Assembly: GCF_003634935.1 (NCBI RefSeq)
Contig: NZ_RBXO01000001.1
Span: forward strand, 3,745,501-3,809,500
Direction of reading: 5' to 3'
From: Saccharothrix australiensis
GTDB taxonomy: Bacteria; Actinomycetota; Actinomycetes; Mycobacteriales; Pseudonocardiaceae
Length of the DNA: 64,000 bases
This document shows, piece after piece, positions 22,579-56,220 of this stretch (positions are counted from its first letter, which is position 1; every line of letters begins with the position of its first letter). A model generated the notes under the pieces. The model had not been told where the DNA came from, did not search any database, and was given only the letters and a program-made list of their open reading frames with translations. Position numbers and translations under genes: made by a program.

Positions 22579-23565
22579 GTGATCGAACGCAATCGCAGTG
22601 GAGACAAGGAGAACGCGCTCGACGGCCTGTCCCCGGCCGTCGACGTGCCCGTGGAGGTGCTGCTGCCCGCCGACTCACCCCGGCTCGACGGTGAGAGCGA
22701 CGAGCACGTCCGGATGCTCGCGGCGATCGAGGGGCCGCTGCCGCCGATCATCGTGCACCGGCCGACGATGCGCGTCATCGACGGCATGCACCGCGTGCGG
22801 GCGGCGTTGCTGCGCGGTGACGGCGAGGTGGCCGCGCGGTTCTACGACGGTGACGAGGAGTCCGCCTTCGTCCGGGCGGTCAAGGCGAACGTCACGCACG
22901 GCCTGCCGCTCAGCCAGGCGGACCGGGAGGCCGCCGCGCGGCGGATCATCGGCTCGCACCCGGAGTGGTCCGACCGCTCGATCGCCGCGGCCACCGGGAT
23001 GGCGGCGGAGACCGTCGCCGCGCTGCGCCGCCGGTCGGGTGACCGCGCGGCCCAGCCGATCGCGCGCATCGGCCGTGACGGCCGGGTGCGGCCCCTGAGC
23101 AGCGCCGAGGGCCGTCGCAAGGCGGGCGAGCTGTTCGCCGACCGGCCCGGCGCGACGCTGCGCGAGGTCGCCAGGGCCGCCGGCATCTCGGTCGGCACGG
23201 CGCGGGACGTCCGGGACCGCGTGCGCCGGGGCGAGGACCCGCTGCCGGACCGGGTGCGGGAGCGGGAGGCGGGCGCGCCGACCCCGCCGACCGCGCTGTG
23301 CGCCGCGCCCGCGCTGCCCGACGGCGACTTCGCGCGGCTGCTCGACAACCTGCGGCGCGACCCGACGCTGCGCCTGACCGAGTCGGGGCGCGCCCTGCTC
23401 CGGCTGCTGACCGTGCAGGCGATGCGCCCGGAGGACTGGGGCCTGCTCGTCCGCGCCACGCCCGCCCACTGCCTGCCGGCGCTGTCGAAGCTGGCCAGGG
23501 GCTGCGCCGACAAGTGGGCCCAGCTGGCGGAGGAGTTCGACGAGCGCGCCCGCGCCACGGCGTGA
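22579..23565 (+). CDS. StrR-family ParB/Srx-type pathway activator
   Basis: A 328-residue regulator starting MIERNRSGDKENALDGLSPA. This is close to the start of StrR-type activators of streptomycin- and glycopeptide-class clusters (StrR, Bbr, Tei15 as recalled). It has a ParB/sulfiredoxin-like N-terminal domain (PPIIVHRPTMRVIDGMHRVR, about residues 55-75) and a central helix-turn-helix (SDRSIAAATGMAAETVAALRRR). A second HTH-like stretch (LREVARAAGISVGTARDVRD) and a helical C-terminus (KLARGCADKWAQLAEEFDER) follow. The GTG at 22579 has GAGGAG about 9 bases upstream. StrR proteins bind 9 bp - N11 - 9 bp inverted repeats; two such sites occur in this window (34759 and 50433), so it probably activates the adjacent NRPS cluster. 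Confidence 0.88.
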   Translation: MIERNRSGDKENALDGLSPAVDVPVEVLLPADSPRLDGESDEHVRMLAAIEGPLPPIIVHRPTMRVIDGMHRVRAALLRGDGEVAARFYDGDEESAFVRAVKANVTHGLPLSQADREAAARRIIGSHPEWSDRSIAAATGMAAETVAALRRRSGDRAAQPIARIGRDGRVRPLSSAEGRRKAGELFADRPGATLREVARAAGISVGTARDVRDRVRRGEDPLPDRVREREAGAPTPPTALCAAPALPDGDFARLLDNLRRDPTLRLTESGRALLRLLTVQAMRPEDWGLLVRATPAHCLPALSKLARGCADKWAQLAEEFDERARATA

Positions 23566-23745
23566 CCCGCGTGCCGTGCGGACGGGCCGCGACTCGTCCG
23601 CACGGCACGCTGGCGCGGGGTCCCGACGCGCCGGGGCTCGCGGCGCGGCGACGCCGAGGCGCGCGTCGGGTCGCTCGGGTCACAGCGGTGTGACGCCGGT
23701 GTCGGGTCCCGCACCGGCCTGGTGCCGAGGTGCGCGTCAGGTCGG

Positions 23746-23836
23746 TGCCGGACCCTCTGTGCCGGACCCTTCGCGTCGGACCCTCTGTGCCGGACCCTTC
23801 GCGTCGGACCCTCTGTGCCGGACCCTCTGTGCCGGA
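23746..23836. repeat. CGGACCCT tandem repeat array between convergent genes
   Basis: Six copies of CGGACCCT with alternating tails (CTGTGC, TCGCGT) run from 23749 to about 23826, giving a 28-bp higher-order unit present twice; a seventh copy is mutated (CGGATCTC). The array lies in the 278-bp gap between the StrR-type gene and the convergent ferredoxin reductase gene. No spacer diversity, so not CRISPR. Confidence 0.75.
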
Positions 23837-23843
23837 TCTCGGG

Positions 23844-25046
23844 TCAGGCCGACAACGGCGCCTTCAGCGGTGACTCCGGGCTGAACGGCACCGCGTGGTC
23901 GGCGGCGGACCCGAGCAGGCGACGAGCCGCGACGTGGTCGGCGGTGTGGCCGACCGTCTCCACCGCCACCAGCCGCGACCCCGCGACCCGGAACACCGTC
24001 AACCCCTTCTCCGTCGGCCGCGCGACAGCGTCGTCGGCGGGCCGCGCGAGACCCACGACCTGCACCCGCGCGCCGTGCTGCGTGGTCCAGAACCGGGGCA
24101 GCGCCCGGTACGGGTCGGTCTCCCCGGTCAGGTGGCCGGCCACGAACCGGGCCTGGTCCACGGCGTTCTGCACCGACTCCAGCCGCACCCGCCCGCGCGG
24201 GGTCGGGTGGCTCGCGCAGTCCCCGATCGCGTACACGGCCGGGTTCGCCGTCCGCAGCCACGCGTCGACCAGCACCCCGTCGGCGGTGGGCAGGCCGCAC
24301 GCCGCCGCGAGGTCCGTCGCCGGCCGGACGCCCGCGCCCACCACCACGAGGTCCGCGGGCAGCCGCGCGCCGGACGCCGTCACCACGGACCGCACCCGGT
24401 GGTCGCCGTCCAGCCGCACGGCCGTGTCGCCGAGCAGCACGCGGACGCCCCGGTCGCGGTGCCGGGCCAGCAGGTCCGCCGCGACCTCGGCGGACAGCGC
24501 GCGCCCCAGCAGCCGGGGACCCACCTCCAGCACCGTCACGTGCGCGCCCGCCGACGCCGCCGACGCCACCTCCAGGCCGGTGAACCCGCCGCCCAGCACG
24601 ACGACGTGCTCGGCGGTCCGCAACCGCTCCCGCACCTCCACCGCGTCGGCCAGGGTGCGCAGCGGGCACACGCCCGCGAGCACCGCGCCGGGCACCGGCA
24701 GCGTCCGGGCGACCGAGCCGGTGGCCAGCACGAGGTGGTCCCAGCCCAGGACGACGCCCGCGCGGGTGCGGACGGTGCGGGCCGCCTGGTCGACCGACTC
24801 CACCGGGTCGCCGGTGCGCAGCCGGACGTCCAGCCGCTCGTAGGCGTGCGCCGGGCGCAGCGGCAGCGCGTCCTCGTCGGCGGAACCGGCGAGGTAGTCC
24901 TTCGACAGGGGCGGTCGCTGGTAGGGCAGGTCCGGCTCCGCGCCGACGACCGTGATCGCGCCCGCGTGCCCGCGCTCCCGCAGGGACACCGCGACCTGCG
25001 CGCCCGCCTGGCCCGCGCCGACCACGACGACCCGCCCGTCGCTCAC
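23844..25046 (-). CDS. FAD-dependent NAD(P)H-ferredoxin reductase
   Basis: A 400-residue two-dinucleotide-binding flavoprotein of the putidaredoxin-reductase type. The N-terminal FAD motif is VVVVGAGQAGAQVAVSLRERG, given in part as VVGAGQAGAQVAVSLRE. DLPYQRPPLSKDYL is the family loop, the NAD(P)H motif is VVLGGGFTGLEVASAA (about residue 150), and YAIGDCA near 275 closes the second FAD contact. It passes electrons from NAD(P)H to the adjacent ferredoxin for the P450. The start GTG at 25046 overlaps the ferredoxin stop (GTGA), so the two are translationally coupled. Last gene of the minus-strand P450/amidinotransferase operon. Confidence 0.9.
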   Translation of the reverse strand: MSDGRVVVVGAGQAGAQVAVSLRERGHAGAITVVGAEPDLPYQRPPLSKDYLAGSADEDALPLRPAHAYERLDVRLRTGDPVESVDQAARTVRTRAGVVLGWDHLVLATGSVARTLPVPGAVLAGVCPLRTLADAVEVRERLRTAEHVVVLGGGFTGLEVASAASAGAHVTVLEVGPRLLGRALSAEVAADLLARHRDRGVRVLLGDTAVRLDGDHRVRSVVTASGARLPADLVVVGAGVRPATDLAAACGLPTADGVLVDAWLRTANPAVYAIGDCASHPTPRGRVRLESVQNAVDQARFVAGHLTGETDPYRALPRFWTTQHGARVQVVGLARPADDAVARPTEKGLTVFRVAGSRLVAVETVGHTADHVAARRLLGSAADHAVPFSPESPLKAPLSA

Positions 25047-25366
25047 AGCTGCTCCTCGGGCAGGTGGACGGTCAACCCGTCGAGGTCGTCGTCCACCACG
25101 ACGCAGCACGACAGCCTGCTCGCGGCGGTGCGCGGCGACGCGGTGGCCTCCAGCATCTCGTCCTCGTCCGGCGAGACCGGGCCGAGCCGGTCGGCGTCGG
25201 CCTCGTCGACGTAGACGTGGCAGGTGGCGCACATGGTGTTGCCACCGCACTCGGCGACGATGCCCGCCACGTCGTGGCGGATCGCGCCCTGCATCACGCT
25301 CGTGCCCGCGGCGACGTCCACGGTGTGGCGCGTGCCGTCCGGCCGCACGTAAACGATCTTCGGCAT
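25043..25366 (-). CDS. [2Fe-2S] adrenodoxin-type ferredoxin
   Basis: A 107-residue ferredoxin with cluster ligands Cys40, Cys46, Cys49 (AECGGNTMCATCHVYVDE) and Cys87 (SRLSC), the Cx5Cx2C...C pattern of putidaredoxin/adrenodoxin-type proteins. It accepts electrons from the overlapping reductase and should feed the P450 upstream in the operon. Together the three make a complete class I P450 electron chain, unusual in actinomycete clusters, where ferredoxins are more often 3Fe-4S types and reductases are encoded elsewhere. ATG start at 25366. Confidence 0.92.
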   Translation of the reverse strand: MPKIVYVRPDGTRHTVDVAAGTSVMQGAIRHDVAGIVAECGGNTMCATCHVYVDEADADRLGPVSPDEDEMLEATASPRTAASRLSCCVVVDDDLDGLTVHLPEEQL

Positions 25367-25400
25367 CCGCCGCTCCCTCGAAACCCGGTGTCGGACCTTC

Positions 25401-26723: not shown

Positions 26724-28016
26724 TCAGCCGCCCAGGCCGCGCAGGAAGTCGGCGAGTCGCCGCACGCCCTCCTCGATCTCCTCGGGGGTGAGGAAGCTGC
26801 ACGACAGGCGGATCTCGTCGGTGCCCGCGCCGGCGAGGTGGAACTGCGACATCGGCGTCCACAGCACGCCGTACTTCGACGCGGAGGTCTCCATCAGGCG
26901 CGCGTCCGCCTTGACCGGCAGGCGCATCCGCACGAAGAACCCGCCGGTGGGGCGGTTCCACGTCACGGCGGGCAGGCCGTCGCCGGGCACGATCTCGCGC
27001 TCCAGCGCCGCCAGCAGCAGCCGCAGGTTTCGCCGGTACAGCTCGGCCTTCGGGCGGCCCAGCTCGACCAGGGAACCGCCGTGCGCCAGCAGCATCCCGC
27101 CGACCACGGCCTGGCCGACCGCGGGCGTGTGCAGGCTGATCATGCCCTTGAGGGCGGCCAGGTCGTCGGCCAGCAGCCCGGTCGCGCCGTCGCGGCGCAC
27201 CGGCTGGTCGGCCACCACGTACCCGACGCGCGCGCCGGGCAGCGCGATCTTGGAGAACGTGCCGAGCAGCACCACGCGACCGGTGGTGTCGAGCTGCTTG
27301 AGCATCGGCAGCGCCGCGCCCGGCTCGGCGGTGAACGCGTAGGTGGTGTCCTCGACCAGCAGGAAGTCCTCGGCCTCGGCCAGGTCCAGCAGGCGTCGCC
27401 GCGTCGCGAGGTCGAGCACCGTGCCCGACGGGTTCGCGTGGTCCGGCGCGACGTACAGGGCGCGGACGCGCTTGCCGCGCGACCGGGCGTCGGCGCACGC
27501 GCGGGCCAGGCCGTCGAGGTCGAGGCCGCCGTCGACCTCGGCCACCGGCACCAACTCCGCGTCCACCAGCCGCGCCGCGCCGCTGAAGCCGATGAAGCAC
27601 GGGTCCACGGCCGCGAACAGGTCGTCGGCGTCCCGGCGCAACGCGCGCAGCAGCAACAGCATGGCCTCCTGCGCGCCGACCGTGACGACGACCCCGCCGC
27701 GCGGCGTCGCCAGCCCGAAGTCCCGGCGCAGCGCCTCCGCGATCAGGCCGGTGACCAGGCCCTTGCCCGGACCGTACTCGTAGAGCGCGGTGCGGGCCGC
27801 CGCGTCGGACAGGCCCTCGTCGGCCCTCAGGTGCTCCAGGAAGCGCTCGACGTGGGCCGTGGCGTCGAAGTGCTCGGCGAACGCCGGGTTGGGCGCGCCC
27901 GGCGCGAAGGAGATCGCGTCGGGGTAGCGGCTCATGACGGAGGTGTGGAACACCGGGACGCTGAGCACGGGGTCGCGCAGGGAGGCGTGCAGCAGGTGGT
28001 GGTCGACCGTGGTCAC
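26724..28016 (-). CDS. PLP-dependent aminotransferase of the HpgT/DpgT type
   Basis: A 430-residue fold-type I aminotransferase. YPDAISFAPGAPNP, TVGAQEAMLLLLRALRRDAD, VAPDHANPSGTVLDLATRRR, GTFSKIALPGARVGYVVADQ (PLP Lys near residue 258) and VLWTPMSQF closely follow (S)-3,5-dihydroxyphenylglycine/hydroxyphenylglycine transaminases of glycopeptide clusters. The genes that make the keto-acid partners (DpgA-D, HmaS, Hmo) are absent, so the substrate is probably a different 2-oxo acid. It is 16 bp behind the amidinotransferase, which suggests joint work on a guanidino or related non-standard amino acid. GTG start. Confidence 0.85.
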   Translation of the reverse strand: MTTVDHHLLHASLRDPVLSVPVFHTSVMSRYPDAISFAPGAPNPAFAEHFDATAHVERFLEHLRADEGLSDAAARTALYEYGPGKGLVTGLIAEALRRDFGLATPRGGVVVTVGAQEAMLLLLRALRRDADDLFAAVDPCFIGFSGAARLVDAELVPVAEVDGGLDLDGLARACADARSRGKRVRALYVAPDHANPSGTVLDLATRRRLLDLAEAEDFLLVEDTTYAFTAEPGAALPMLKQLDTTGRVVLLGTFSKIALPGARVGYVVADQPVRRDGATGLLADDLAALKGMISLHTPAVGQAVVGGMLLAHGGSLVELGRPKAELYRRNLRLLLAALEREIVPGDGLPAVTWNRPTGGFFVRMRLPVKADARLMETSASKYGVLWTPMSQFHLAGAGTDEIRLSCSFLTPEEIEEGVRRLADFLRGLGG

Positions 28017-28032
28017 AGTGGTTCCTCCTGGT

Positions 28033-29172
28033 TCAGGACAGGTAGTCCTCGGGGCCGCCGTCGCGCACCGTGTCGAGGGTGAAGCAGTGGAAGCCGCCGC
28101 CGAAGATGCGCCGGTGGCGGTGCCGCACCGGCACCACGGTGAAGCCGTGGCGCTCCAAAGTGGACATCAGCTCGGGGCACGCGTCGTTGACCATCACCGT
28201 GTCCGGGCCGACCGACAGGACGTTGAGGTCGATGAACGGGCTGGTGAGCACCAGGTCGTCGTCGTCGTAGACCGGGAAGTTGTTCGACGTCGGCCGCGGC
28301 GGGACGATCATGTCCCACTTGCGGAGCGCCTCCGGGAGGAACGCGGCCACGGCGGGGGAGCGCACCAGCAGCGTGCCCGGCCGCAGGGCGAGGACCATGC
28401 TGTCGATGTGGCTGTCGCTGAGCTTGTGCACCCGGTGCACGCGGAACCGGCCGCGCAGGTGCCGCTCCAGCCAGTCCGCGCCCATCGCGTGGTTCTCGGT
28501 GGAGATGTTCACCACCAGGTCCTTGCCGAGGCGCAGGCACTGCGCGCCGTCGATCATCATCTCGAACCCGACGTCGTACGGCGACGGCTCCGGGTCCTTC
28601 ACCGGCTCGGTCGGGCCGCCCTGCGAGGTGTTGGCGTAGGACGGGTCGAACGACGAGTCGGTCATCAGCGGTCGCGGCATCACCGTCCACCGCGCGCCTG
28701 CCCGGAAGTACTCCGCGAACACCGGCTTGAGCAGCTGCGTCTCGAAGTAGCGCGAGCGGATCATGGGCGAGGTCTCGATGATCTCGTCGCCCAGCACGAG
28801 GGTGTTGTCGCGCAGGTTCAGCGGCGGGATCACCGCCGCCGACCACGCGGGCGTGGTCACCTCGGCGGTGGCCGCGTCGAGGTCCAGCGGGCGGTGCACC
28901 GTGACGCCGAGGGACTCGAACGCCTTGGCCATGCCGTCGAGGTCCTCGATCAGCTCCTCGACGTAGCGCTGCTTGATCGGGGCGCGCTCGGCGTCGCGCT
29001 CGGACACCGGGTTCCCGCTCCGCGCCGTCACCCGCGGGTAGTAGTAGCGGGTGATGTTGTCGTGGAAGAACAGGTCCCACGACAGGTCGCGCTCGTGGGA
29101 GATGTAGTTCGCCGCCGACCCGAGGACGACCTCGCGCAGCGGGGACCACTCGTCGTAGCTGTTCAGCTTCAT
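28033..29172 (-). CDS. Arginine:X amidinotransferase (glycine amidinotransferase family)
   Basis: A 379-residue enzyme of the amidinotransferase/StrB1 family, which transfers the amidino group from arginine to an acceptor amine through a covalent Cys intermediate. The protein begins MKLNSYDEWSPLREVVLGSA as the family does. SDSHIDSMVLALRPG (about residue 255) holds the catalytic His, and the active-site Cys is in GGGFHCFTLD near residue 362; acidic residues EMMIDGAQCLR lie between. It should make a guanidino acid for the cluster product. First gene of a five-gene minus-strand operon; the 220-bp gap upstream is a shared divergent promoter region with the tryptophan dioxygenase. Confidence 0.9.
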   Translation of the reverse strand: MKLNSYDEWSPLREVVLGSAANYISHERDLSWDLFFHDNITRYYYPRVTARSGNPVSERDAERAPIKQRYVEELIEDLDGMAKAFESLGVTVHRPLDLDAATAEVTTPAWSAAVIPPLNLRDNTLVLGDEIIETSPMIRSRYFETQLLKPVFAEYFRAGARWTVMPRPLMTDSSFDPSYANTSQGGPTEPVKDPEPSPYDVGFEMMIDGAQCLRLGKDLVVNISTENHAMGADWLERHLRGRFRVHRVHKLSDSHIDSMVLALRPGTLLVRSPAVAAFLPEALRKWDMIVPPRPTSNNFPVYDDDDLVLTSPFIDLNVLSVGPDTVMVNDACPELMSTLERHGFTVVPVRHRHRRIFGGGFHCFTLDTVRDGGPEDYLS

Positions 29173-29392: not shown

Positions 29393-30187
29393 ATGACGCA
29401 GCAAGTCAACGCGGCCTTGACATATGCCCACTACCTGCGCCTGGACCAGGTGTTGACGGCGCAGCGGCCGCGGTCCGACCGACATGACGAAATGCTCTTC
29501 ATCGTCATGCACCAGGTCTACGAGTTGTGGTTCAAGCAAATCCTGCACGAACTCGACCGGCTCCAGCGGCTGCTGGCCTCGGGTGACACCGCGCGGTCCG
29601 GTCGGGCGCTGCGCCGGATCCTGGCGCTGTGGCGGACGTCGGTCGCGCAGTTCGCCGTGCTGGAAACGATGACGCCGCCCGAGTTCGTCGGCTTCCGCGA
29701 TTGGCTGGAGGCGTCCAGCGGATTCGAGTCGGCGCAATTCCGGGAGATCGAGGCGGTGCTCGGCAGGCGGGACCGGCGGGTGGTCGAGCGGTACCTGCCC
29801 GGCACGCCCGAGCGGGAGCGGATCGCGGCGGCGATGAGCCGGCCCGCGCTCGGCGACTCGTTCGCGCGCTACCTGGTCCACCAGGGCTACGCGGTGCCCG
29901 CCGAGGTGGTCGGGCGGGACGTGCGCGAGCCCGCCGAGCCGTCGCCCGCGATGCAGGATTTGCTGGCGCGCGTGTACTCGGACGACGGTCCGGCGGTGGG
30001 CGTCTGCGAGCACCTGGTCGACCTCGACGCCGTCGTGCAGGAGTGGCGGCACCGGCACGTGAAGATGGTGGAGCGCGTGATCGGGGGCAAGCGGGGCACG
30101 GCCGGATCGGCGGGCAGCGCCTACCTGCGGACCACGGTGGGCAAGCCGGTGTTCCCCGACCTGTGGGCCGCCCGCGACCGGCTGTGA
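29393..30187 (+). CDS. kynA: Tryptophan 2,3-dioxygenase
   Basis: A 264-residue heme dioxygenase that opens the indole ring of tryptophan to N-formylkynurenine. Family motifs are intact: LTYAHYLRLDQVL at the N-terminus, HDEMLFIVMHQVYELWFKQI (about residues 30-49, with the substrate-side His and Phe) and WRHRHVKMVERVIGGKRGT (about 214-232, with the proximal heme His). GSAYLRTTVGKPVFPDLW closes the protein. Length is normal. No formamidase or kynureninase lies nearby, so kynurenine may be a building block or be passed to the adjacent dioxygenase-like protein. It converges on that gene, ending 4 bp from its stop. Confidence 0.92.
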   Translation: MTQQVNAALTYAHYLRLDQVLTAQRPRSDRHDEMLFIVMHQVYELWFKQILHELDRLQRLLASGDTARSGRALRRILALWRTSVAQFAVLETMTPPEFVGFRDWLEASSGFESAQFREIEAVLGRRDRRVVERYLPGTPERERIAAAMSRPALGDSFARYLVHQGYAVPAEVVGRDVREPAEPSPAMQDLLARVYSDDGPAVGVCEHLVDLDAVVQEWRHRHVKMVERVIGGKRGTAGSAGSAYLRTTVGKPVFPDLWAARDRL

Positions 30188-31445: not shown

Positions 31446-31480
31446 GGCAGTCTCCGTCCAGTTCCGGTCGTTCGGTCGGG

Positions 31481-46700: not shown

Positions 46701-47282
46701 GCCCTCCAGTCGCCGCTGCTGGCGCGGCCCGGCGACCACGTGGCCGACGTCGCCGAGCTGGCCGCGCGGTACGTGGCGGCCGTCCGCTCGGTGCGGCCCA
46801 CCGGGCCGTACCACCTGCTGGGCTGGTCGTTCGGCGGTCTCGTGGCCTACGAGATGGCGGTCCAGCTGCGGGCCGCGGGCGCGGAGGTCGGCCTGCTGGC
46901 GCTGCTCGACGGGCACCTGCCCGCGCCGGGCGGCGACCCGGTGCCCGACGCCGGGCTGTCCCCGGCGGACAAGCGGGCGGTGCTGCGCGCGCACGGCGTC
47001 GCGTCGGTGGAGCTGGAGGACGAGGTGGTGGACGCGGTGTTCGCCGCCACCCGCGAGAACCTGCGGTTGGAGCAGGGCTACCGGCCCGAGCCGTACCCCG
47101 GCGACCTGACGTTCTTCACCGCCACCCGCGGCCGGCGGGCGCACTGGCGGGGCGCCGAGCAGTGGGCGCCCCACGTGCGCGGCGCGCTGACCGACCACCC
47201 GCTGCGCTGCGGCCACCTGGAGATGACCGACCCGCCCGCGCTCGCCGCCGTGTCCAGGGTGATCAACCGCGTGCTGAGGTGA
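40791..47282 (+). CDS. Two-module NRPS: A - T - C - A(FkbM methyltransferase) - T - TE
   Basis: A 2163-residue peptide synthetase. A1 spans about 20-510 ([14 protein letters not shown]), T1 has its Ser near 555 (LLLGGHSLL), and C about 610-1040 has an intact HHIAMDGWS near 737. A2 starts at about 1065 ([14 protein letters not shown] near 1203). A methyltransferase of FkbM type ([15 protein letters not shown] near 1565, [19 protein letters not shown] near 1703) is embedded between motifs A8 and A10; then T2 (Ser near 1882) and TE (GWSFGG near 2010). By-eye specificity codes: A1 DVQHYAEVVK, proline-like and compatible with piperazate; A2 DVWHISLVDK, serine. An FkbM-type O-methyltransferase in a serine A domain recalls KtzH of kutznerides, which makes O-methylserine. 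GTG start with GGGAGG 8-9 bases upstream. There is no starter C domain, so the first residue keeps a free amine. Confidence 0.92.
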
Positions 47283-47367: not shown

Positions 47368-48879
47368 TCAGCCCGCGTTGAGCACGGCCTCCGAGATGCG
47401 GGACGAACCCGACGTCGCGCCGTGCGCGTCGGCGTAGGACCGCACGACGCGGGTGGCGTCCAGCAGTTCGGACCAGCCGACCCGGCTGAAGATCCGGCAC
47501 CAGTCCATCGAGATCTCGTCGAAGTCGACCACGTCGGTGTGCCCGTACTTGTCCGGCATCGACTCCAGCAGCGCCTCGTCCAGGATCTCGAAACCCTTCT
47601 CCTTCGCCGCCGCCCGCGCCAGGTCCGGGTTCATCAGCCACCGGCCGGTCAGCGCGCCGAAGTCGGGGTACAGCGGCTGCGCCTGGATCGACGCCATCAT
47701 CCCGTTGTCCACCAGCCACTCCGCGAACGCCACCGTGTTCGCCAGGCTCTCCTGCGTCTCTCCGGGCCCGCCCAGCACCAGCGAGCCGTAGATCAGGATG
47801 TCGGCCTCCTTGAGCAGGGTCGCCGCGCGGCGGTTGTTCTCCAGGCTGTCGCGGGGCCCCTTGAGCAGCTTGAGCATCCGGGTGTCGCCCGACTCCAGGC
47901 CCATGTTCACCCGGTACACGCCCAGCCCCCGGTACAGCTCCACCAGCCGGGGCGTGGTCTCGGCGGCCTGCGTGTAGACGAAGAACTTCGGGTCGCCGAT
48001 GTCGTCCGGCTTGGCCCGCACGAGCTGCTCCACCCAGCGCGGCGAGCTGCTCATGCTGTCGAACGCCTCGTAGAAGATCGACGCCGCCACCTGCTCCCGG
48101 CCCGCGCGCACGTCGGCCCAGAACACCTCGGGGGAGGAGAACCGCAGGGTCAGGTCGGCGATGCCGCAGAAGTGGCACGGCGACTTCACGCGCGCGCAGC
48201 CCCGCGCCCGGTTCATCGTCGTCACGCCGGTGATCTCGCCGTCGTGCAGGGAACCGTAGCGCTCCACGTAGTTGCGCAGGTACTGGTCCCAGTTCGAGGC
48301 GGGCATGAGCGAGCGGTCGGGCACCGGCACCGCGTCCAGCACCCGCGTGGTCAGCGCGCCGCCGCCGAGCAGGGACGGCAGCTCCGGCAGCGCGTTGTGC
48401 GCGATGCCGTCCCGCGTCCGGTACAGCAGCTGCGGCACCGACTCGACGGGCCGGTCGCCGTTGAGGGCCGAGATGAAGGCGGAGAACGCGAACTCGCCGA
48501 CGTCCGCCGCGCACACGTAGTCCACCGCCTCCCGGTGCCGGAGGATCTGCCGGGCCATCGCGGCCGCCTGGTCGTTGCCCAGGATGGTGACGGCGCCGAC
48601 GTCCTTGCCCAGGGCCGCGAGCCGCAGGGTGTTCCGGTACGAGGTGCCCAACACGCTGATGCCCAGGACGTCGGGCTCGAAGTCCCGGACGAGCCGTTCG
48701 ACCACCGGCATGGGCGTGATCTGCCCGTCGACGGCGATCACCTCCAGGTGGGGGTGGTCGTGCATCAGCACGGTGGCGAGCGACACCACGCCGAGCGCCG
48801 GGAATGTGCCGTCGTTGGCTATGGAGGACACGTGGTCGTCCGTGCCCGCGTTGACGAGGAGGACCTTGTTCACGCGCAT
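47368..48879 (-). CDS. Cobalamin-dependent radical SAM enzyme
   Basis: A 503-residue protein with an N-terminal B12-binding Rossmann domain (about 1-150, FPALGVVSLATVLMHDHPHL, VLGISVLGTSYRNTL) and a radical SAM barrel (about 220-440). The cluster motif reads GCARVKSPCHFCGI: Cys spacing x6-x2 instead of the usual x3-x2. YRVNMGLESGDTRMLKLLKG and YGSLVLGGPGETQESLAN are typical radical SAM barrel strands. Members methylate unactivated carbons or phosphorus, or rearrange rings. It would act on a precursor amino acid or the peptide. ATG start; it follows the PGM1-like ligase gene after an 85-bp gap containing a hairpin. Confidence 0.85.
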   Translation of the reverse strand: MRVNKVLLVNAGTDDHVSSIANDGTFPALGVVSLATVLMHDHPHLEVIAVDGQITPMPVVERLVRDFEPDVLGISVLGTSYRNTLRLAALGKDVGAVTILGNDQAAAMARQILRHREAVDYVCAADVGEFAFSAFISALNGDRPVESVPQLLYRTRDGIAHNALPELPSLLGGGALTTRVLDAVPVPDRSLMPASNWDQYLRNYVERYGSLHDGEITGVTTMNRARGCARVKSPCHFCGIADLTLRFSSPEVFWADVRAGREQVAASIFYEAFDSMSSSPRWVEQLVRAKPDDIGDPKFFVYTQAAETTPRLVELYRGLGVYRVNMGLESGDTRMLKLLKGPRDSLENNRRAATLLKEADILIYGSLVLGGPGETQESLANTVAFAEWLVDNGMMASIQAQPLYPDFGALTGRWLMNPDLARAAAKEKGFEILDEALLESMPDKYGHTDVVDFDEISMDWCRIFSRVGWSELLDATRVVRSYADAHGATSGSSRISEAVLNAG

Positions 48880-48964: not shown

Positions 48965-50284
48965 TCAGGCGATCGGGGGCGCGAAGTCGAACAGCTCGCC
49001 CAGCCGCTGCTCGACCTCGGTCGCGGCGTCCATCGACTCGGCCACGACGCAGTACGGTACGCAGTTCGCGGCGGGGTTGAAGGCGTGCACGAACAGGACG
49101 CCGCGCCGGCTCGCCCGGTCGTAGCCGAGGTCCGTGCCGGCCAGCCGGTCCACGGCCTCCGCGAACGTCGTGACCGACCACGGCGGCGTGCCGATGCGCT
49201 CGACGATGAACCGGTCCTCCGCGTAACCGGGCCCGATGACCTGCTCGCCGACCACCCCGTACAGGTGGGTCGACCCGGTGGAGCGGCCGTTGTACTCGGT
49301 GAACAGCACCTCGCCCGCGGGCGTCACGATGGCGTCCGCGCTGAGCACGCCCCGGTAGCCGATCGCGCGCATCGCCTCGCCGAGCCGCCGCCCGCCGTCG
49401 ATGATCTCGGCCATCCGCCCGGCGTCGACGTTCGGCGCGGGGATCACCGAAGCGGCCTGCGGCAGCGACAGCAGCTGGCCCTGCCCGCCGAACCGGACGC
49501 CGTCGTCGCCGACGTGGAACTCGGCGAACGCGGCGCTGCTGTCGGGGTGGTAGCGCTCCACGACCAGCGAGTGCCGCCCGTCACCGGTCAGCTTGTCCCA
49601 GTGCTCCTCCAGGTAGTCGCGCAGCGTGATCGCGTCCGCGACGACGACCAGGCGGCGTGCGCCGATCGGGTCGATGTGCGGTGTGCGGCTGATGATCTCA
49701 TTGCCCCAGCCGCCGGACATGAACTCGTTCTTCAGCATCGCGGGGTGCCCGGCGTCGAGCAGGGCCGTCACGGCCTGCTCCGCCGCGCGCGGGTGCAGGC
49801 ACACCGCGCCCTCGGCCACCGGCACGCCGACGCCCCGCGCGATGACGCGGAACAGCGCCTTGCTGTTGGCGACCGCGTCACCGCCCTGGCTGAGGAAGCC
49901 GCGGCCGGGCACCGCGTGCCCGACGCCCAGCGCGTCGGCCAGCTCCACCACCCGCGCGTCCGGCCACAGCGCGTAGACGTGGTCGATCACGCGGTCCTCC
50001 GCGGCGGCGCGCAGCCGGTCCAGGAACTCCGGGTCCCGCAACCGTTCCCGCGTCAGCCGGCCGATCGCGCCCTCGCCCGGCGGCGGCACCACGAACCGCA
50101 GCGACTCCGCCGACGTGCCCGTCCAGCCGGTCACGTACTCGACGTACGCCTTGTCCGGCTCGGTCGGCAGCACCAGCACGTCGCCGTCGCGCGCGAACCA
50201 GGTGAGGCGTTGGCTGTACCACGCCGCCGCATTCCTGTTCCGCAGGTCCTCGTTGAAGTCATGGCCAACCAACAACTGCACCAT
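48965..50284 (-). CDS. PGM1-like ATP-grasp peptide ligase
   Basis: A 439-residue protein with a pre-ATP-grasp domain (VQLLVGHDFNEDLRNRNAAA, then ARDGDVLVLPTEPDKAYVEY) and an ATP-grasp core. The core is seen in NSKALFRVIARGVGVPVAEG, HPAMLKNEFMSGGWGNEI (about 214-231) and VLFTEYNGRSTGSTHLYGVV (about 333-352, Mg-binding Glu/Asn). The pattern fits the PGM1 family, peptide ligases first seen in pheganomycin synthesis that join a non-standard amino acid to a peptide. Here it may couple a guanidino or piperazate-containing unit. ATG at 50284; a StrR-type operator lies about 150 bp upstream. It heads a minus-strand pair with the radical SAM gene. Confidence 0.75.
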   Translation of the reverse strand: MVQLLVGHDFNEDLRNRNAAAWYSQRLTWFARDGDVLVLPTEPDKAYVEYVTGWTGTSAESLRFVVPPPGEGAIGRLTRERLRDPEFLDRLRAAAEDRVIDHVYALWPDARVVELADALGVGHAVPGRGFLSQGGDAVANSKALFRVIARGVGVPVAEGAVCLHPRAAEQAVTALLDAGHPAMLKNEFMSGGWGNEIISRTPHIDPIGARRLVVVADAITLRDYLEEHWDKLTGDGRHSLVVERYHPDSSAAFAEFHVGDDGVRFGGQGQLLSLPQAASVIPAPNVDAGRMAEIIDGGRRLGEAMRAIGYRGVLSADAIVTPAGEVLFTEYNGRSTGSTHLYGVVGEQVIGPGYAEDRFIVERIGTPPWSVTTFAEAVDRLAGTDLGYDRASRRGVLFVHAFNPAANCVPYCVVAESMDAATEVEQRLGELFDFAPPIA

Positions 50285-50432: not shown

Positions 50433-50461
50433 GTGCAACCGCGAGGGGCGGTCAGTTGCAC
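50433..50461. promoter_or_regulatory. StrR-type operator in front of the PGM1-like ligase gene
   Basis: GTGCAACCG - N11 - CAGTTGCAC, a 9-11-9 inverted repeat with eight of nine arm positions complementary. It matches the site at 34759 in 17 of 18 arm bases. It overlaps the last codons of the luciferase-like monooxygenase gene (stop 50452) and lies about 150 bp upstream of the ATP-grasp gene, which is transcribed away from it. Confidence 0.78.
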
Positions 50462-51786
50462 GCGAGGCCCAGGTGCTCGCGCAGCGTGCGCCCCTCGTAC
50501 TCGGCGCGCACCACGCCGCGCTCCTGGAGCAGCGGCACGACGGTCCGCGCGAACTCGTCGAACGCGCCCGGCACCGTGTGCGGCACCACGATGAAGCCGT
50601 CGCACGCGCCCCCGTCCACCCACGCGCACATGGCGTCGGCGACCGTCGAGGGCGCGCCGATGAACGTCTGCCGCCCCGTCACCTCGATCACCAGCTCGCG
50701 GATCGACAGGCCCTTGGCCTCGGCCAGCTCCCGCCACCGGCGCGCCGTGGCGGGCGGGTCCGGGTACTTGCGCACCCCCGCCATCGCCTTGGCCACCGCA
50801 CCGCCGCCGACCACCGGCTCGACGTCGGGCAGCGGGCCGTCCGGGTCGTACGCGCCCAGGTCGCGGTTCCACACCTCCTCCAGGAACGCGATCGCGGTCC
50901 GCCCGTCGACCTGCGCCAGCCGGACGCGGGCGGCCCGCTCGCGCGCCTCGGCGTCGGTGTCGCCGAGGCAGAACGTGGCCGCGGGCAGCACCAGCGGCGT
51001 GCCCGGCGCGCGGCCGTGCGCGGCGGCCCGGCGCCGCACGTCCGCGTAGAACTCCCGCTTCTCCGCCAGGTCGCCGTACATGCCGAAGATCGCGTCCGCC
51101 GCCGCGGCGGCGAACTCGCGGCCCTCCGGCGACGAGCCGGCCTGGAACACGACCGGCCGGCCCTGCGGGCCGGGCGGCGTGGTGAACCGGCCGGCGATGT
51201 CGAACTGCGCGTCGCGGTGCGCGAACGCGCCCGCGTCGGCGCGGCGCAGGAAGCGGCCGGTGGCCTTGTCGGCGAGCACGTCGTCGGCGCGCCAGGAACC
51301 CAGCAGCCGGCACACCGCGTCCAGGAACGCGGCGGCCCGCTCGTAGCGCTGCTCCCGCGGCAGGTAGGACCCGCGCCGGAAGTTCTCCCCGACGTACTCC
51401 TCCCAGGTGGTGACGACGTTCCACCCGGCGCGCCCGCCGGACAGGTGGTCCAGCGTCGCGAACTGCCTGGCCACCTCGAACGGCTCGTTGAACGTCGAGT
51501 TGACCGTGCCCGCCAGGCCGATCCGGTCGGTGACGGCGGCGAGCGCGGCCAGCACGGCGAAGTTGTCCGGCCGGCCCGCCATGTCGCGGTCGTAGACCTT
51601 GCCCTGCTGCTCGCGCAGGCGCAGGCCCTCGGCCAGGAACACGAAGTCGAACCGGGCGCGCTCGGCGGTGCGGGCGAAGTCCGCGAACGCGGCGAAGTCG
51701 ATGTGGCTGCCGGTCGCCGGGTCGCTCCACACCAGCGTGCTGTTGGTGCCGGGGAACATCGCGCCCAGGTGCAGTCGGCGGGTCAC
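50452..51786 (-). CDS. Luciferase-like FMN monooxygenase, NtaA/DszA type
   Basis: A 444-residue two-component flavin monooxygenase that uses FMNH2 from a separate reductase. LHLGAMFPGTNSTLVWSDP at the start, FAVLAALAAVTDRIGLAGTV, DHLSGGRAGWNVVTTWEEYV (about 110-129) and RPVVFQAGSSPEGREFAAA are the signature of the NtaA/SnaA/DszA branch, which hydroxylates or oxidises N-, S- or ring positions. The GTG start overlaps the stop of the second luciferase-like gene by 4 bp (GTGA). The paired enzymes may act in sequence on one substrate. No flavin reductase gene is in the window. Confidence 0.88.
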   Translation of the reverse strand: MTRRLHLGAMFPGTNSTLVWSDPATGSHIDFAAFADFARTAERARFDFVFLAEGLRLREQQGKVYDRDMAGRPDNFAVLAALAAVTDRIGLAGTVNSTFNEPFEVARQFATLDHLSGGRAGWNVVTTWEEYVGENFRRGSYLPREQRYERAAAFLDAVCRLLGSWRADDVLADKATGRFLRRADAGAFAHRDAQFDIAGRFTTPPGPQGRPVVFQAGSSPEGREFAAAAADAIFGMYGDLAEKREFYADVRRRAAAHGRAPGTPLVLPAATFCLGDTDAEARERAARVRLAQVDGRTAIAFLEEVWNRDLGAYDPDGPLPDVEPVVGGGAVAKAMAGVRKYPDPPATARRWRELAEAKGLSIRELVIEVTGRQTFIGAPSTVADAMCAWVDGGACDGFIVVPHTVPGAFDEFARTVVPLLQERGVVRAEYEGRTLREHLGLACN

Positions 51787-52952
51787 GACGACCTCACCGC
51801 CGCGGCGGCGTACCGGCCGGCCGGGCGGGCCAGCCCCAGCAGGCCGCGCAGCGTGCCCGCCTCGTACCGGGTGCGGAACACCCCGCGCCTGCCCAGCTCG
51901 GGCGCCACGGCGCGGGTGACGGCCCGCAGGTCGTGCGGCAGCGCGGCGGGCCGCAGCCGGAACCCGGTGATCCCGACCGCCCACCACGACTCCAGCAGGT
52001 CGGCCAGCGCGGCGGGCGTCCCGGTGAACACCGGCGCCCCGGGGTCGCAGCCGCCGTGGCCCAGGGCGTCCAACCGCGCCGCGCGCTCGGCCGCCGCGCC
52101 TTCCTCCTCGTCCACGAAGACGGTCAGCTCGGCGAACACGTGCACGGGCCCGTCCCGGCCCGCAGCCTCGCACGCGGCCCGGACCCGCGCGGCGGCGCGG
52201 CGCGCGTCCTCGGCGTCGCGCGGCGCGACCAGCACGACGTCGGCCGCGCCCGCCGCGAAGGCCAGCGCGTCGTCGTCGTGGGCGGCGGCGCACACCACCG
52301 GCTGCCCCTGCGGCGGGCGCGGCGTCGTGGACGGGCCCGCGACCGAGAACCACCGGCCGCGGAAGTCGACGTGGTGCAGCTTGTCGCGGTCCAGGAACCG
52401 GCCCGTCGCCCGGTCGCGGATCACCGCGTCGTCGTCCCAGCTGTCCCACAGCCTGCGCACCACCTCGACGTAGTCGGCGGCCTCGGCGTGCAGGTCCGCG
52501 CGCGGCACCGGGAAGCGGCGGCGGCCGAAGTGCGCGGCCTCGTCCACCCGGTCGGTCACCCGCGCGCACCAGCCGGCCCGCCCGGTGCTCGCGTAGTCGA
52601 GCGTCGCGACCGCCCTGGACGTGTGGAACGGCTCGGTGTGCGTCACCGTCACCACCGGCACCAGGCCGACGTGCGCGGTGACCGGGGCCGCCCGCGCGGC
52701 CACCTGCACCGCGTCGAGCCGGCCGCGCACCCGGTCCAGCCGGTCGTCCGGCCCGTGCGGCGCGGACGACTGGAGCACCAGCGCGTCCTCGACGGTGACC
52801 AGGTCGAGCAGGCCGCGCTCGGCCTCGGCCACCAGGCCCGTCCAGTAGCCGGGCGTGCACAGCAGGTCCGGACGGGCGTCCGGCTCGCGCCACGCGGCCG
52901 GGTGCCACCCCGTGCCGTCCAGCGCGACGGAAAGGTGCAGCGGGAACACCAC
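51783..52952 (-). CDS. Luciferase-like FMN monooxygenase, second copy
   Basis: A 389-residue member of the same superfamily but divergent from its neighbour: FPLHLSVALDGTGWHPAAWR, LLDLVTVEDALVLQ, TVTHTEPFHTSRAVATLDYA, STGRAGWCARVT and GQPVVCAAAHDDDALAFAAG mark the TIM-barrel strands. The conserved Gly-Arg-Ala/Gly-Trp block (GRAGW) is kept. First gene of the minus-strand block with the NtaA-type enzyme. It could perform an N-oxidation or Baeyer-Villiger-like step; the substrate is unknown. Start GTG at 52952. Confidence 0.82.
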   Translation of the reverse strand: MVFPLHLSVALDGTGWHPAAWREPDARPDLLCTPGYWTGLVAEAERGLLDLVTVEDALVLQSSAPHGPDDRLDRVRGRLDAVQVAARAAPVTAHVGLVPVVTVTHTEPFHTSRAVATLDYASTGRAGWCARVTDRVDEAAHFGRRRFPVPRADLHAEAADYVEVVRRLWDSWDDDAVIRDRATGRFLDRDKLHHVDFRGRWFSVAGPSTTPRPPQGQPVVCAAAHDDDALAFAAGAADVVLVAPRDAEDARRAAARVRAACEAAGRDGPVHVFAELTVFVDEEEGAAAERAARLDALGHGGCDPGAPVFTGTPAALADLLESWWAVGITGFRLRPAALPHDLRAVTRAVAPELGRRGVFRTRYEAGTLRGLLGLARPAGRYAAAAVRSS

Positions 52953-53165: not shown

Positions 53166-54215
53166 GTGCGCGTCGCCATCGCCCACAACCTGCGCACCAC
53201 CGACGACGTGTCGGAGGTGGTCTTCACCTCCCGCGAGACGGTCGACTCCGTCGCCGAGGCGATCGCCGGGCTCGGGCACGAGCCGGTGCCGGTCGAGGTG
53301 TCCGGACCCGTCGCCGACACCGTGGAGCGGCTGGAGGACTGCGCGCCCGACCTCGTCTACAACCTCGCCGAGGGGTGGACCGACGGCGCGCGCCAACCGT
53401 TCTACACCGGCCTGTACGCCGCGCTCGGGCTGCCGTTCACCGGGTCGCCCGCCCACGTGCAGGCCCTCGCGATGGACAAGTACGCCACCAAGCTCGTGGT
53501 GGCCGGGCACGGCGTCCGCACGCCCCGGTCGCAGTTCCTGCGCGACGCCCGCGACCTCGACCCCGCCCGGTTCGAGCCGCCCGTGATCGTGAAGCCGAAC
53601 CACGAGGGCACCTCGCGCGGCATCACCCAGGAGTCCGTCGTGGACAGCGCGGCCGAAGCCGCCGCCCTCGCCGCGGACCTGCTGCGCGAGTACGGGGCGG
53701 GCGTGCTCGTGGAGGAGTACGTGCCCGGTGTCGACGTGACCGTGCCGTGGCTGGAGATCGCGGGCGATGACGGCGGGGGAGCGCTCGACGCCACCGAGGT
53801 GCTGATCCACGACCTCGCCGCGTCCGGTCGCCGGCACGGCATCATGGACTACGGCTTCAAGAACTACTCGAACCGGCCGCTGACCGGTGTCGCGCCGAGC
53901 GCGTCGTTCCGCACGCCCGCGCGGCTGCCGTCCGCCGTGCTCGCCGAGCTCGCGGCGAGCACCGCGACCACGGCGCGCGCGCTGGGCTGCCGCGACCTCG
54001 CGCGGGTGGACTTCCGGGTCGGCGACGACGGCGTGCCGCACCTGCTGGAGGTCAACGTGCTGCCGGGCCTGGACCCGACGCAGAGCATCCACCACGCGGG
54101 CCGCCTCGCCGGCCTGCACCCCACGCAGGGCGTGGTGCGGGCCGTCGTCGCCTCGGCGGCGCGGCGCTGGGGCCTGGCGGCCGAGCCCGTCCAGCCGACC
54201 GCCGTGGGGGTGTGA
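53166..54215 (+). CDS. D-Ala-D-Ala ligase-like ATP-grasp enzyme
   Basis: A 349-residue ATP-grasp ligase. It has ALAMDKYATKLVVAGHGVRT (about 100-119), PVIVKPNHEGTSRGITQESV (about 140, the P-loop equivalent), VLVEEYVPGVDVTV (ATP clamp, about 181) and LARVDFRVGDDGVPHLLEVN (about 279-298, Mg-binding Asp, Glu and Asn). The end of the core, LEVNVLPGLDPTQS, is typical of Ddl-like proteins. As a stand-alone ligase in an NRPS cluster it probably forms a dipeptide or amide bond between non-standard amino acids. The stop is one base from the next gene's GTG, so the pair is coupled. GTG start with GGAGGAG 6 bases upstream. Confidence 0.85.
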   Translation: MRVAIAHNLRTTDDVSEVVFTSRETVDSVAEAIAGLGHEPVPVEVSGPVADTVERLEDCAPDLVYNLAEGWTDGARQPFYTGLYAALGLPFTGSPAHVQALAMDKYATKLVVAGHGVRTPRSQFLRDARDLDPARFEPPVIVKPNHEGTSRGITQESVVDSAAEAAALAADLLREYGAGVLVEEYVPGVDVTVPWLEIAGDDGGGALDATEVLIHDLAASGRRHGIMDYGFKNYSNRPLTGVAPSASFRTPARLPSAVLAELAASTATTARALGCRDLARVDFRVGDDGVPHLLEVNVLPGLDPTQSIHHAGRLAGLHPTQGVVRAVVASAARRWGLAAEPVQPTAVGV

Positions 54216-54216
54216 C

Positions 54217-56220
54217 GTGGAGGACGGCTGGTACCTCGCCACCTACCTCAACCCGGCCGGCGTGCACCGGCCGCTCGACGTGTACTTCCGCCACGACAAC
54301 AACATCTCGCTGTGGGAGAAGCGCGGCCGGTACGTGACCCTCCTGCGGCACTGGGAGTACGAGCGGACGACGGGGCAGAAGATGCACCGCACGCCGTTCG
54401 TCGCGCACCGGGACCAGGTGGCGTTCATCGACCGCCTGCTCGCGCCGACCGGGCTGCGGCTCGCCGACATGACGGCGGTGTGGGGCACGCCGGACCTCGC
54501 GGCGGGCGCGCACCCGTGGGTGGAGCCGGACACCGACCTGGCGTTCCACAGCATCGCCCACCTCTACAGCGCGATCCTGCTCGACAGCGACGTCTTCTTC
54601 GACGGCACGGTCGTCGGCATGGCCGTCGACGCCGGCCCGGACCGCCTGCTGGACCGCCGCTTCAAGCCCCACTGGTACGCCGGGTGCGTGGTGCGCCGCG
54701 GACGCGTCGAGCTGCACCCCGTCGAGTCGCCCGGCCCGCTGTACTGCGAGGCGCGGGACCACTTCGGGCTCCGCGAGGGCACGCTGATGGCGCTCGCCAC
54801 CGCGACCGGGGCCACCGGCCGGTGCGACCGCGAGGCGGTGCTGGAGAAGTGCCGGTTCGACGGCTTCGACGGCATGGCGCAGGCCGCGCTCGCGTTCCGG
54901 GAAATCCTGGCCCAGGTCACCGGAACCGCCGACGCGGACCCGCGGTTCACCGAGCGGGAGAACCTGATCAGCGCGGTGATGAAGGAGGTGCAGGCGATCT
55001 CGGTGGCGATCATGGAGCGCAACACCGAGCGCCTGCTCGACGTCGGCGGCGTCGACCCGGCGGCGGCGCACCTGGCGCTCGCCGGCGGTTACGCGCTGAA
55101 CTGCCCGACCAACAGCCACCTGATGGACCGGTACGGCTTCCGCGGCCTGCTCGCGCCGCCGTGCGTGGGCGACAGCGGCCAGTCGATCGGCATCGCGCTG
55201 GAGGCGTTCCACCGCGGTTCGGGCGGCGAGCGGTTCCACTTCCGCTTCCCCGGTCCGTACCTCGGGTCCGAGGACGGCGACCTGGCCGGCGCGCTCGCCC
55301 GCCACGCCCGGTTCGTCGAGTCCGTCACCGACGACTTCGACCCGGCGGCGGCCGTGGCCGACCTGCGCGAGGGGCCGGTGGCGTGGTTCGCGGGCCGGGC
55401 GGAGAGCGGGCCGCGGGCGCTGGGCAACCGCAGCATCCTCGCGGACCCCACGTCGAGCGTGGCCAAGGACGTGCTGAACCAGGTGAAGCGCCGCGAGTGG
55501 TGGCGGCCGGTCGCGCCGGTCGTGCTGGCCGAGCACGCCGACGCGTGGTTCGAGGGCGTCCGGCCGTCGCCGCACATGCTGGAGACCTTCGCCGTGCGGG
55601 CCGACCGCCGCGCCCGCGTGCCCGCCGTGGCGCACCTGGACGGGACCGCGCGGGTGCAGACCCTGACGCGCGCGCAGAACCCGTTGCTGCACCGGCTGAT
55701 CACGGCGTTCCACGCGGCGACCGGCGTGCCGATGCTGTGCAACACGTCGTTGAACGACAAGGGGGAGCCGATCGTCGACACGATCGAGCAGGCGATGAAC
55801 TTCTGCCTGCGCCGAGGCGTGCGCGTGGCGTACTTCGACGGGCGGCGCGTGGCGTTCCGCGACTTCGCGGACTACCCGGAGCGGAACCCGGCCGAGCGGG
55901 TGCGCGCGCCGTTCACCGACGTGGACCCGTGGGAGGCGCTGCGGGTGCGGGCCGAGGCTAACCCGCACGGCCTGCCCGGCACGCACCTGTACCTCTACCT
56001 GCGCGACCTGGAACTGCACGACCGGCACGACATCCGCACGGCCGAGGGCGCCGCCGCCGTGCGCGCCGCGATCGACCGCCGCCTGCGCGCGGACCCGGAC
56101 CTGTGGGTCGAGGTGGAGCGCGACCGCGAGGAAACCGCGCGCCAGTTCGAGAACTTCGGCGGGGCGGAGGTCGTCAACGGGCGCGTGCCCGTCTACCGGG
56201 TGTCCGAGTCGTCGCGCTGA
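54217..56220 (+). CDS. O-carbamoyltransferase (NodU/CmcH/TobZ type)
   Basis: A 667-residue enzyme with a Kae1-like N-terminal domain and the carbamoyltransferase C-terminal domain. FHSIAHLYSAILLDSD (about residues 109-124) carries the metal-binding His pair HxxxH. LALAGGYALNCPTNSHLM (about 287) and GRAESGPRALGNRSILADP (about 392-410) are family signatures, with NTSLNDKGEPIVDT near 510. It transfers carbamoyl from carbamoyl phosphate, via carbamoyl-AMP, to a hydroxyl group. The acceptor could be a hydroxyl made by the P450 or other oxygenases. GTG start one base behind the ligase gene. Last gene of the cluster on this side. Confidence 0.88.
   Translation: MEDGWYLATYLNPAGVHRPLDVYFRHDNNISLWEKRGRYVTLLRHWEYERTTGQKMHRTPFVAHRDQVAFIDRLLAPTGLRLADMTAVWGTPDLAAGAHPWVEPDTDLAFHSIAHLYSAILLDSDVFFDGTVVGMAVDAGPDRLLDRRFKPHWYAGCVVRRGRVELHPVESPGPLYCEARDHFGLREGTLMALATATGATGRCDREAVLEKCRFDGFDGMAQAALAFREILAQVTGTADADPRFTERENLISAVMKEVQAISVAIMERNTERLLDVGGVDPAAAHLALAGGYALNCPTNSHLMDRYGFRGLLAPPCVGDSGQSIGIALEAFHRGSGGERFHFRFPGPYLGSEDGDLAGALARHARFVESVTDDFDPAAAVADLREGPVAWFAGRAESGPRALGNRSILADPTSSVAKDVLNQVKRREWWRPVAPVVLAEHADAWFEGVRPSPHMLETFAVRADRRARVPAVAHLDGTARVQTLTRAQNPLLHRLITAFHAATGVPMLCNTSLNDKGEPIVDTIEQAMNFCLRRGVRVAYFDGRRVAFRDFADYPERNPAERVRAPFTDVDPWEALRVRAEANPHGLPGTHLYLYLRDLELHDRHDIRTAEGAAAVRAAIDRRLRADPDLWVEVERDREETARQFENFGGAEVVNGRVPVYRVSESSR

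Follow-up and report, generated by a model that had tools for sequence, protein, structure and literature searches.

Pathways of the resorcinomycin/pheganomycin type are defined by a route to phenylglycine through DpgA, a type III polyketide synthase (PKS), and their acceptor is either a ribosomal peptide or an amino acid. PMC11943689 describes the ketomemicin pathway, ktmA–F, as containing an ATP-grasp peptide ligase and an amidinotransferase, and PMC10888640 reports for diperamycin an O-methylated serine module with a methyltransferase domain. Here we consider a stretch of 64,000 nucleotides from Saccharothrix australiensis (contig NZ_RBXO01000001.1, positions 3,745,501–3,809,500; hereafter the window), in which 22 genes occupying about 22.5–56.2 kb constitute a genuine orphan natural-product gene cluster. 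We give about even credence to the reading that this cluster specifies a guanidino-capped short peptide and represents a variant of the resorcinomycin/pheganomycin type devoid of dihydroxyphenylglycine; we speak of a variant because the core is alike, but the DpgA feature fails.

The host genome (7.86 Mb in 3 contigs, 99.3% complete) has a GC content of 73–77% within the window; genes were called by codon usage and annotated through Pfam, NCBIfam, and sequence comparison with the PDB. An earlier sequence-only reading of the same DNA had placed the cluster at 22579–56220, which coordinates agree with our gene calls, and every enzyme type that it named was recovered by those four approaches. In addition, we found genes beyond its list: a gamma-glutamyltranspeptidase (GGT), a flavin-adenine dinucleotide (FAD) enzyme, a class I/II aminotransferase, an MbtH-like protein, and a two-gene ATP-binding cassette (ABC) exporter.

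The guanidino-cap core comprises five of these genes. The ATP-grasp peptide ligase (48965–50284, minus strand) matched PGM1 (PDB 3wvq) with 449 bits over residues 3–433, nearly its full length. The amidinotransferase (28033–29172, minus), though without a Pfam or NCBIfam match, gave 165 bits to the inosamine-phosphate amidinotransferase 1bwd, 151 to SxtG, and 140–147 to arginine:glycine amidinotransferase chains, and was 71–76% identical to the copies at L001, L005–L007, G375, and G016. The pyridoxal-phosphate (PLP) aminotransferase of class I/II (26724–28016, minus) has relatives of 45–58% identity in DpgA-bearing clusters, and the two halves of the ABC exporter, recognized by Pfam, lie at 37373–38965 (start possibly at 37268) and 38962–40701, both on the plus strand. 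When the PGM1-like protein was scanned against the genome_contigs collection of 84,980 species—from which the own or very near genomes may have been left out—seven loci emerged (L001–L007), all from Streptomyces and 47–52% identical, which loci we take to be clusters of the resorcinomycin/pheganomycin kind. An amidinotransferase accompanied the ligase in four of the seven (72–76% identical), an aminotransferase in five (45–58%), and the ABC exporter, at least in part, in all seven (represented at L005 by just its end, on the margin of the stretch), while a DpgA-like type III PKS was found in six, within 19–21 kb in each; in the seventh, L006, the first gene is an incomplete DpgD-like one (365 bits, for a cut-off of 400). 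NCBIfam assigned all three proteins scanned (from L005, L004, and L092) to DpgA at 619–653 bits, for a cut-off of 425, and recognized DpgB and DpgC above cut-off in L005.

Within the host's own family, the genome G375 carries DpgA, DpgB, DpgC, an aminotransferase, an amidinotransferase, and a nonribosomal peptide synthetase (NRPS) in one row. That same genome contains two differing amidinotransferases about 43 kb apart (L090, L092), one beside the DpgABC and NRPS genes and the other beside an O-methyltransferase. Surroundings were read for 8 of the 14 genomes with such amidinotransferases (own, G375, G016, G213, G080, G133, G045, G019). In the tree, the amidinotransferase of the window was nearest by path to those of L001, L006, L007, and L005, though falling in no starred clade. 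Judged from these homologies, a guanidinoacyl cap would be the firmest biochemical inference to be drawn here, whereas its being an arylglycine is weaker. The extension by non-NRPS ligases and the guanidino group that the sequence-only reading had predicted are thereby supported and made specific by the homology to PGM1 and the amidinotransferases. Its further statement that no described pathway holds this set was borne out in part: none emerged from our searches of the open-access literature (MIBiG was not compared), but the core is common to a known kind of pathway.

One feature that sets the host apart from those clusters concerns DpgA itself. The DpgA query had no match at 1e-5 in the host genome and, upon being rerun with controls, returned a single host match of 27% identity at 5e-5—probably a 3-ketoacyl-(acyl carrier protein) synthase III—compared with 4e-169 in G375 and 3e-242 in G414, while a DpgC query gave only four partial matches in the host, of 32–35%. 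Since DpgA has no match there at 1e-5, the cap would not be the usual dihydroxyphenylglycine, unless that amino acid were made otherwise. The cap might instead be an ordinary 4-hydroxyphenylglycine, for which HmaS/Hmo constitute the route, encoded elsewhere in the genome, in which circumstance nothing new would be needed. In favor of such an origin, the aminotransferase is by relationship of the arylglycine-forming kind, but no family of the HmaS/Hmo type appeared among the matches of the cluster proteins, the rest of the genome not having been searched for them; we look on this source as quite unlikely.

Several considerations weigh against the guanidino-capped variant that we propose. In the tree, the branch of the window aminotransferase is long (0.65), and its substrate may therefore have changed. 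In the 60 kb read of the genome G016, an amidinotransferase of 72% identity comes without a homologue of DpgA or PGM1, and other loci lacking DpgA contain amidinotransferases of 57–66% identity, so that this enzyme alone is no proof of an arylglycine. For the amidino acceptor and for the compound that the PGM1-like ligase takes as partner, we can propose only putative identities. Finally, it cannot be shown from these data that the 22 genes all contribute to a single product, and in the scans made no second locus or genome was found whose full set might confirm the boundaries.

The last point leads to the question of whether the region is one cluster or two or more adjoining ones—for example, an amidinotransferase/PGM1/NRPS part next to a piperazate/TDO or carbamoyl part (TDO, tryptophan 2,3-dioxygenase)—with the chemical groups never all united in one product. 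We tabulated 19 window genes together with DpgA and DpgC across 26 groups of related loci, the comparison covering 6–80 kb per genome, close neighbors only, by tblastn at an E-value of 1e-10 and 35% coverage; L131–L133 and L145–L147 were compared separately. Four modules (amidinotransferase/PGM1, the TDO pair, the B12 enzyme, and KtzT/KtzI) never occurred more than one to a group (0 of 26), as adjoining clusters would lead one to expect. At that threshold the KtzT, KtzI, FAD-enzyme, GGT, luciferase-like, D-Ala-type-ligase, and carbamoyltransferase genes had no match in the 26 groups; L004 has a luciferase-like protein of a different subfamily, the alkanesulfonate monooxygenase type. In the window, however, the genes are interleaved across the two strands over 34 kb: those of the amidinotransferase and TDO1 diverge with 220 bases between them, that of TDO2 overlaps KtzT as called, and that of the PGM1-like ligase sits between the B12 radical S-adenosylmethionine (SAM) and luciferase-like genes. 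A division into separate clusters has, in our estimation, a low probability.

The peptide to be capped within the proposed variant would come from the NRPS (40791–47282, plus), whose order by Pfam, NCBIfam, and motif reading is adenylation domain 1 (A1), peptidyl carrier protein (PCP), condensation domain, adenylation domain 2 (A2), PCP, and thioesterase. The start at 40791, preceded by GGAGG, is the more likely; the MbtH-like protein (PF03621) is encoded at 34871–35092, plus. The specificity codes were read by motif anchoring, without alignment to GrsA, as DVQHYAEVVK for A1 and DVWHISLVDK for A2. The latter agrees at 7 of 8 positions with the serine code DVWHFSLV given in PMC10888640, which agreement is also a check on the code reading, and an FkbM methyltransferase is inserted in A2 ahead of the last core motif, A10. 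The O-methylserine of the sequence-only reading is borne out by this code and the inserted domain, and a module for that residue is well supported at the level of sequence. A1 fared differently, since its first eight positions, DVQHYAEV, match each of the piperazate codes in the same source, DVFSVASY and DVFTVAAY, at only 3 of 8 positions (PMC10888640). A1 bears a closer likeness to proline-type codes. The codes thus support O-methylserine but not piperazate at module 1.

The genes for making piperazate are nevertheless present and adjacent, as the sequence-only reading had stated: a KtzI-like ornithine N-hydroxylase (32133–33416, minus; ATG at 33416; Lys_Orn_oxgnase, 334 bits) and a KtzT-like piperazate synthase homologue (31481–32125, minus). 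Compared with characterized synthase structures, the latter gave 226 bits to 9qlk (111 of 200 aligned residues identical), 181 to 9jn4, and 176 to 9ebk. Among the key residues named in PMC13274692, it retains Tyr7, His61, Asn66, Thr102, Ile154, Lys173, and Lys178; Asp177 is replaced by Glu, as in 9jn4 too, and Tyr150—Tyr in both aligned synthases, 9qlk and 9jn4—by His. PMC10888640 gives KLSQ as the motif by which piperazate synthases are told apart from PaiB, and the protein has it in the form M.KLSQE. In the same PDB comparison, N-hydroxylamine dehydratases (NohD) matched at 117–134 bits, so that a reaction other than piperazate synthesis is possible. The protein is likely, though not proven, to be a true or slightly altered piperazate synthase.

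These data bear directly on the product that the sequence-only reading had envisaged, in which the NRPS would join piperazate, loaded by A1, to O-methylserine, and the ligases, a guanidine, and a carbamate would decorate that core. The adjacent KtzI and KtzT homologues, the retained residues and motif of the latter, and the resemblance of A1 to imino-acid codes are all in keeping with such a structure, but the code agreement of 3 of 8, the loss of Tyr150, the replacement of Asp177 (shared with 9jn4 as it is), and the NohD matches oppose the loading of piperazate by module 1, and we hold the structure as a whole to be unlikely. Within that claim, the piperazyl core has the weakest footing, and the guanidine, the O-methylserine, and the non-NRPS ligation have the strongest.

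The two TDO-fold proteins differ from each other in their catalytic residues. TDO1 (29393–30187, plus; Pfam, NCBIfam, and alignment) retains H55, R117, H240, and T254 (numbering counted from the alignment), whose roles we take to lie in binding the haem and the substrate carboxylate and in base catalysis; in the longer TDO2 (30192–31514, minus; Pfam and alignment), the base His is replaced by Ile while the haem His is kept. At 1e-3, 5 of 40 genomes had TDO2 relatives, and at 1e-15 the number was 25 of 386 genomes of the family, the own genome counted in both. Surroundings were read for 10 of those 25 (own, G021, G144, G163, G196, G169, G137, G104, G409, G276) and for G037, giving 11 loci (the window, L035, L036, L124, L126, L128–L133). 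A short TDO1-like gene lay within 2 kb of TDO2 in 10 of the 11, L131 having only a TDO2-like piece. In all ten aligned TDO2-like rows the base His55 was replaced by I, L, or V with the haem-ligand His kept, and the base His was kept in 11 of the 12 short rows, the twelfth being the L131 piece; the G-T-G-G motif was altered in four short rows (L035, L036, L132, L133), and L036 was also without the arginine. Among the products of neighboring genes were, at L035, a class V PLP enzyme, an FAD hydroxylase, and a cyclase; at L036, another class V PLP enzyme, which ends in a kynureninase C-terminal domain; at L124, an O-methyltransferase; and at L128, an alpha/beta-hydrolase. Because the pairing recurs in the loci read, the two proteins are a recurring pair, found in part beside genes of the tryptophan-breakdown type, and no accident of this cluster. 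A single-sequence AlphaFold model of TDO2 had a mean predicted local distance difference test (pLDDT) score of 36.4 and was unusable.

A route from kynurenine to 3-hydroxyanthranilate was considered and dropped, since none of the cluster proteins matched the class V PLP (kynureninase-type) enzymes in Pfam; with a kynureninase-like query, 7 matches were obtained elsewhere in the host genome, the best two of 36–37%. A bolder proposal would have the cap be an N-amidino arylglycine or other guanidino acid derived from tryptophan in replacement of the type III PKS route: TDO1/TDO2 would open the indole, further oxidation or the loss of an oxalyl group through the GGT, P450, FAD, and luciferase-like enzymes would lead to an aryl keto acid, from which the aminotransferase and amidinotransferase would complete the cap before the PGM1-type ligase placed it on the NRPS dipeptide. 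The product would then belong to a class of peptides bearing hydrazine and guanidine that is undescribed so far, an outcome that we regard as improbable.

The GGT homologue (35166–36911, plus; start possibly at 35127; Pfam) represents an additional copy of a gene of wide occurrence. PMC5519988 states that LmbA-like GGT homologues break a C–C bond with loss of oxalate, that the non-specific relative LmbA2991 is also capable of C–C cleavage, and, together with PMC4780272, that the LmbA-type 4-alkylproline pathway includes LmbB1, LmbB2, and LmbY. We considered that pathway and tentatively set it aside, as members of the GGT family occur widely; none of the names LmbB1, LmbB2, and LmbY occurs among the Pfam/NCBIfam matches of the cluster, the Lmb sequences themselves not having been compared. 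From the sequence, the protein may be a self-resistance copy or a recruited C–C hydrolase. That the protein might be a self-resistance or maturation enzyme instead of an LmbA-like hydrolase of the pathway agrees with the occurrence of a GGT homologue at 1e-60 in 360 of 390 genomes of the family (own included), with a second host copy of 65% identity (G000:C1:391760-393511), and with the long branches of both copies in a tree of 31 rows (0.60 for the cluster copy, 0.53 for the second); set against this are the C–C cleavages just cited and the retention of the Asp-Thr cleavage site (GDT) in the cluster copy, and we place the probability of a resistance or maturation role somewhat below even.

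The B12-binding radical SAM enzyme (47368–48879, minus; Pfam, NCBIfam) departs from the canonical radical SAM motif CX3CX2C in having C-X6-C-X2-C, which spacing is common to it and to all four of its homologues. No relative was found at 1e-40 in the 389 other genomes of the family, and in the Streptomyces genus group 4 of 323 genomes had one at 1e-30 (G580, 76% identical; G595, G664, and G478, 32–34%). In all four outside loci (L143:246-1859, L145, L146, L147) the gene immediately downstream, in the same orientation, encodes a LysE-type exporter, and none of the four stretches matched the window amidinotransferase, PGM1, TDO, or KtzT/KtzI. The G478 locus (L147) has a P450–ferredoxin–reductase cassette about 4 kb away, 31–43% identical to the window P450 and reductase, and the G580 copy lies in a stretch of 60–62% GC, at a distance of about 3 kb from a Tn3 transposase and about 23 kb from an integrase of the phage type. 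The enzyme presumably acts on a free amino acid; its single-sequence AlphaFold model was unusable (mean pLDDT 37.7).

The remaining enzymes are oxidative or group-transferring. A ferredoxin reductase (23844–25046; Pyr_redox_2 and Reductase_C), a 2Fe-2S ferredoxin (25043–25366; Fer2), and a cytochrome P450 (25499–26653; PF00067, haem motif FGHGEHAC) lie on the minus strand, as do the FAD enzyme (33474–34655), weakly halogenase- or hydroxylase-like (best PDB match 75 bits), in which the halogenase motif WxWxIP was not seen by eye, and two luciferase-like flavin mononucleotide monooxygenases of the NtaA/DmoA type (50452–51786 and 51783–52952; TIGR03860, 397 and 284 bits). On the plus strand lie a D-Ala-D-Ala-ligase-type ATP-grasp ligase (53166–54215; PF07478) and a carbamoyltransferase of the NodU/CmcH type (54217–56220; PF16861 and PF02543, with NF041651 below cut-off); a carbamate on the product is plausible.

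At the left end, the gene at 22549–23565 (plus; start uncertain) encodes a StrR/ParB-like regulator. Its designation as a StrR activator in the sequence-only reading stands in part: HTH_23 remained sub-threshold (24.2 bits, cut-off 24.6) and NCBIfam gave no match, but G045 has a gene of 47–48% identity about 7 kb away from its PGM1-like gene and near its amidinotransferase gene. A regulon defined by the StrR consensus palindrome was dropped, since the window had 0 sites with up to 3 mismatches allowed, and the search for a common upstream motif gave only GC-rich, chance-like matches. Between the regulator and ferredoxin reductase genes, at about 23760–23840, short direct repeats resembling GTGCCGGACCCTCT were seen by eye. 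Immediately left of the cluster, at 20934–22396, lies a gene pair encoding an SdpA-like and an HTTM protein (SdpB-like, sub-threshold), which pair we regard, along with the NmrA, TetR, and reductase genes on the right, as outside the cluster.

For the guanidino-capped variant, whose substrates, sequence of reactions, and product structure are all our inference, the aminotransferase would convert a keto acid into an alpha-amino acid, probably an arylglycine or the like, the amine of which would receive an amidino group from arginine through the amidinotransferase. The PGM1-type ligase would then activate this guanidino acid with ATP and couple it onto the N-terminus of a dipeptide released from the NRPS by the thioesterase, in which O-methylserine, from A2 and its built-in methyltransferase, comes after a cyclic imino acid from A1. 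KtzI/KtzT might convert ornithine to piperazate or a close relative for use by A1 or by the second ATP-grasp ligase, and the TDO pair might contribute a unit of the kynurenine type from tryptophan, which could even be the cap. The B12 radical SAM enzyme would modify a free amino acid; the P450, luciferase-like, and FAD enzymes would carry out oxidations; the carbamoyltransferase would add a carbamoyl group; and the ABC pair would export the product. If this scheme is true, capping by a guanidino acid and PGM1 is not bound to dihydroxyphenylglycine or to ribosomal acceptors, and NRPS products can be capped as well. Three enzymatic questions arise besides: the role of a TDO paralogue without the catalytic base next to a normal TDO, the action on a free amino acid of a CX6CX2C B12 radical SAM enzyme that elsewhere neighbors a LysE exporter, and the reason for an extra GGT in the cluster.

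Among the known systems, tryptophan 2,3-dioxygenase has in common with TDO1 the residues for the haem, the substrate carboxylate, and the base, but TDO1 is paired with a longer TDO2 without the base His. With the kutznerides and other piperazate peptides, the cluster has in common the KtzI/KtzT pair and a serine module with an inserted O-methyltransferase, which module presumably resembles KtzH; unlike the kutznerides, however, it has an A1 without a known piperazate code, two modules only, and an added PGM1-type ligase and TDO pair. The ATP-grasp peptide ligase and amidinotransferase are common to ketomemicin, whereas no ktmA aldolase or ktmC dehydratase is found among the Pfam/NCBIfam matches of the cluster and an NRPS is present. 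With the resorcinomycin/pheganomycin type, as in L001–L007, it has in common the PGM1-type ligase, the amidinotransferase, the aminotransferase, and the two-gene ABC exporter, and differs in the missing DpgA match of its host; to that shared core the window adds an O-methylserine NRPS, KtzI/KtzT, the TDO pair, a second ATP-grasp ligase, and a carbamoyltransferase.

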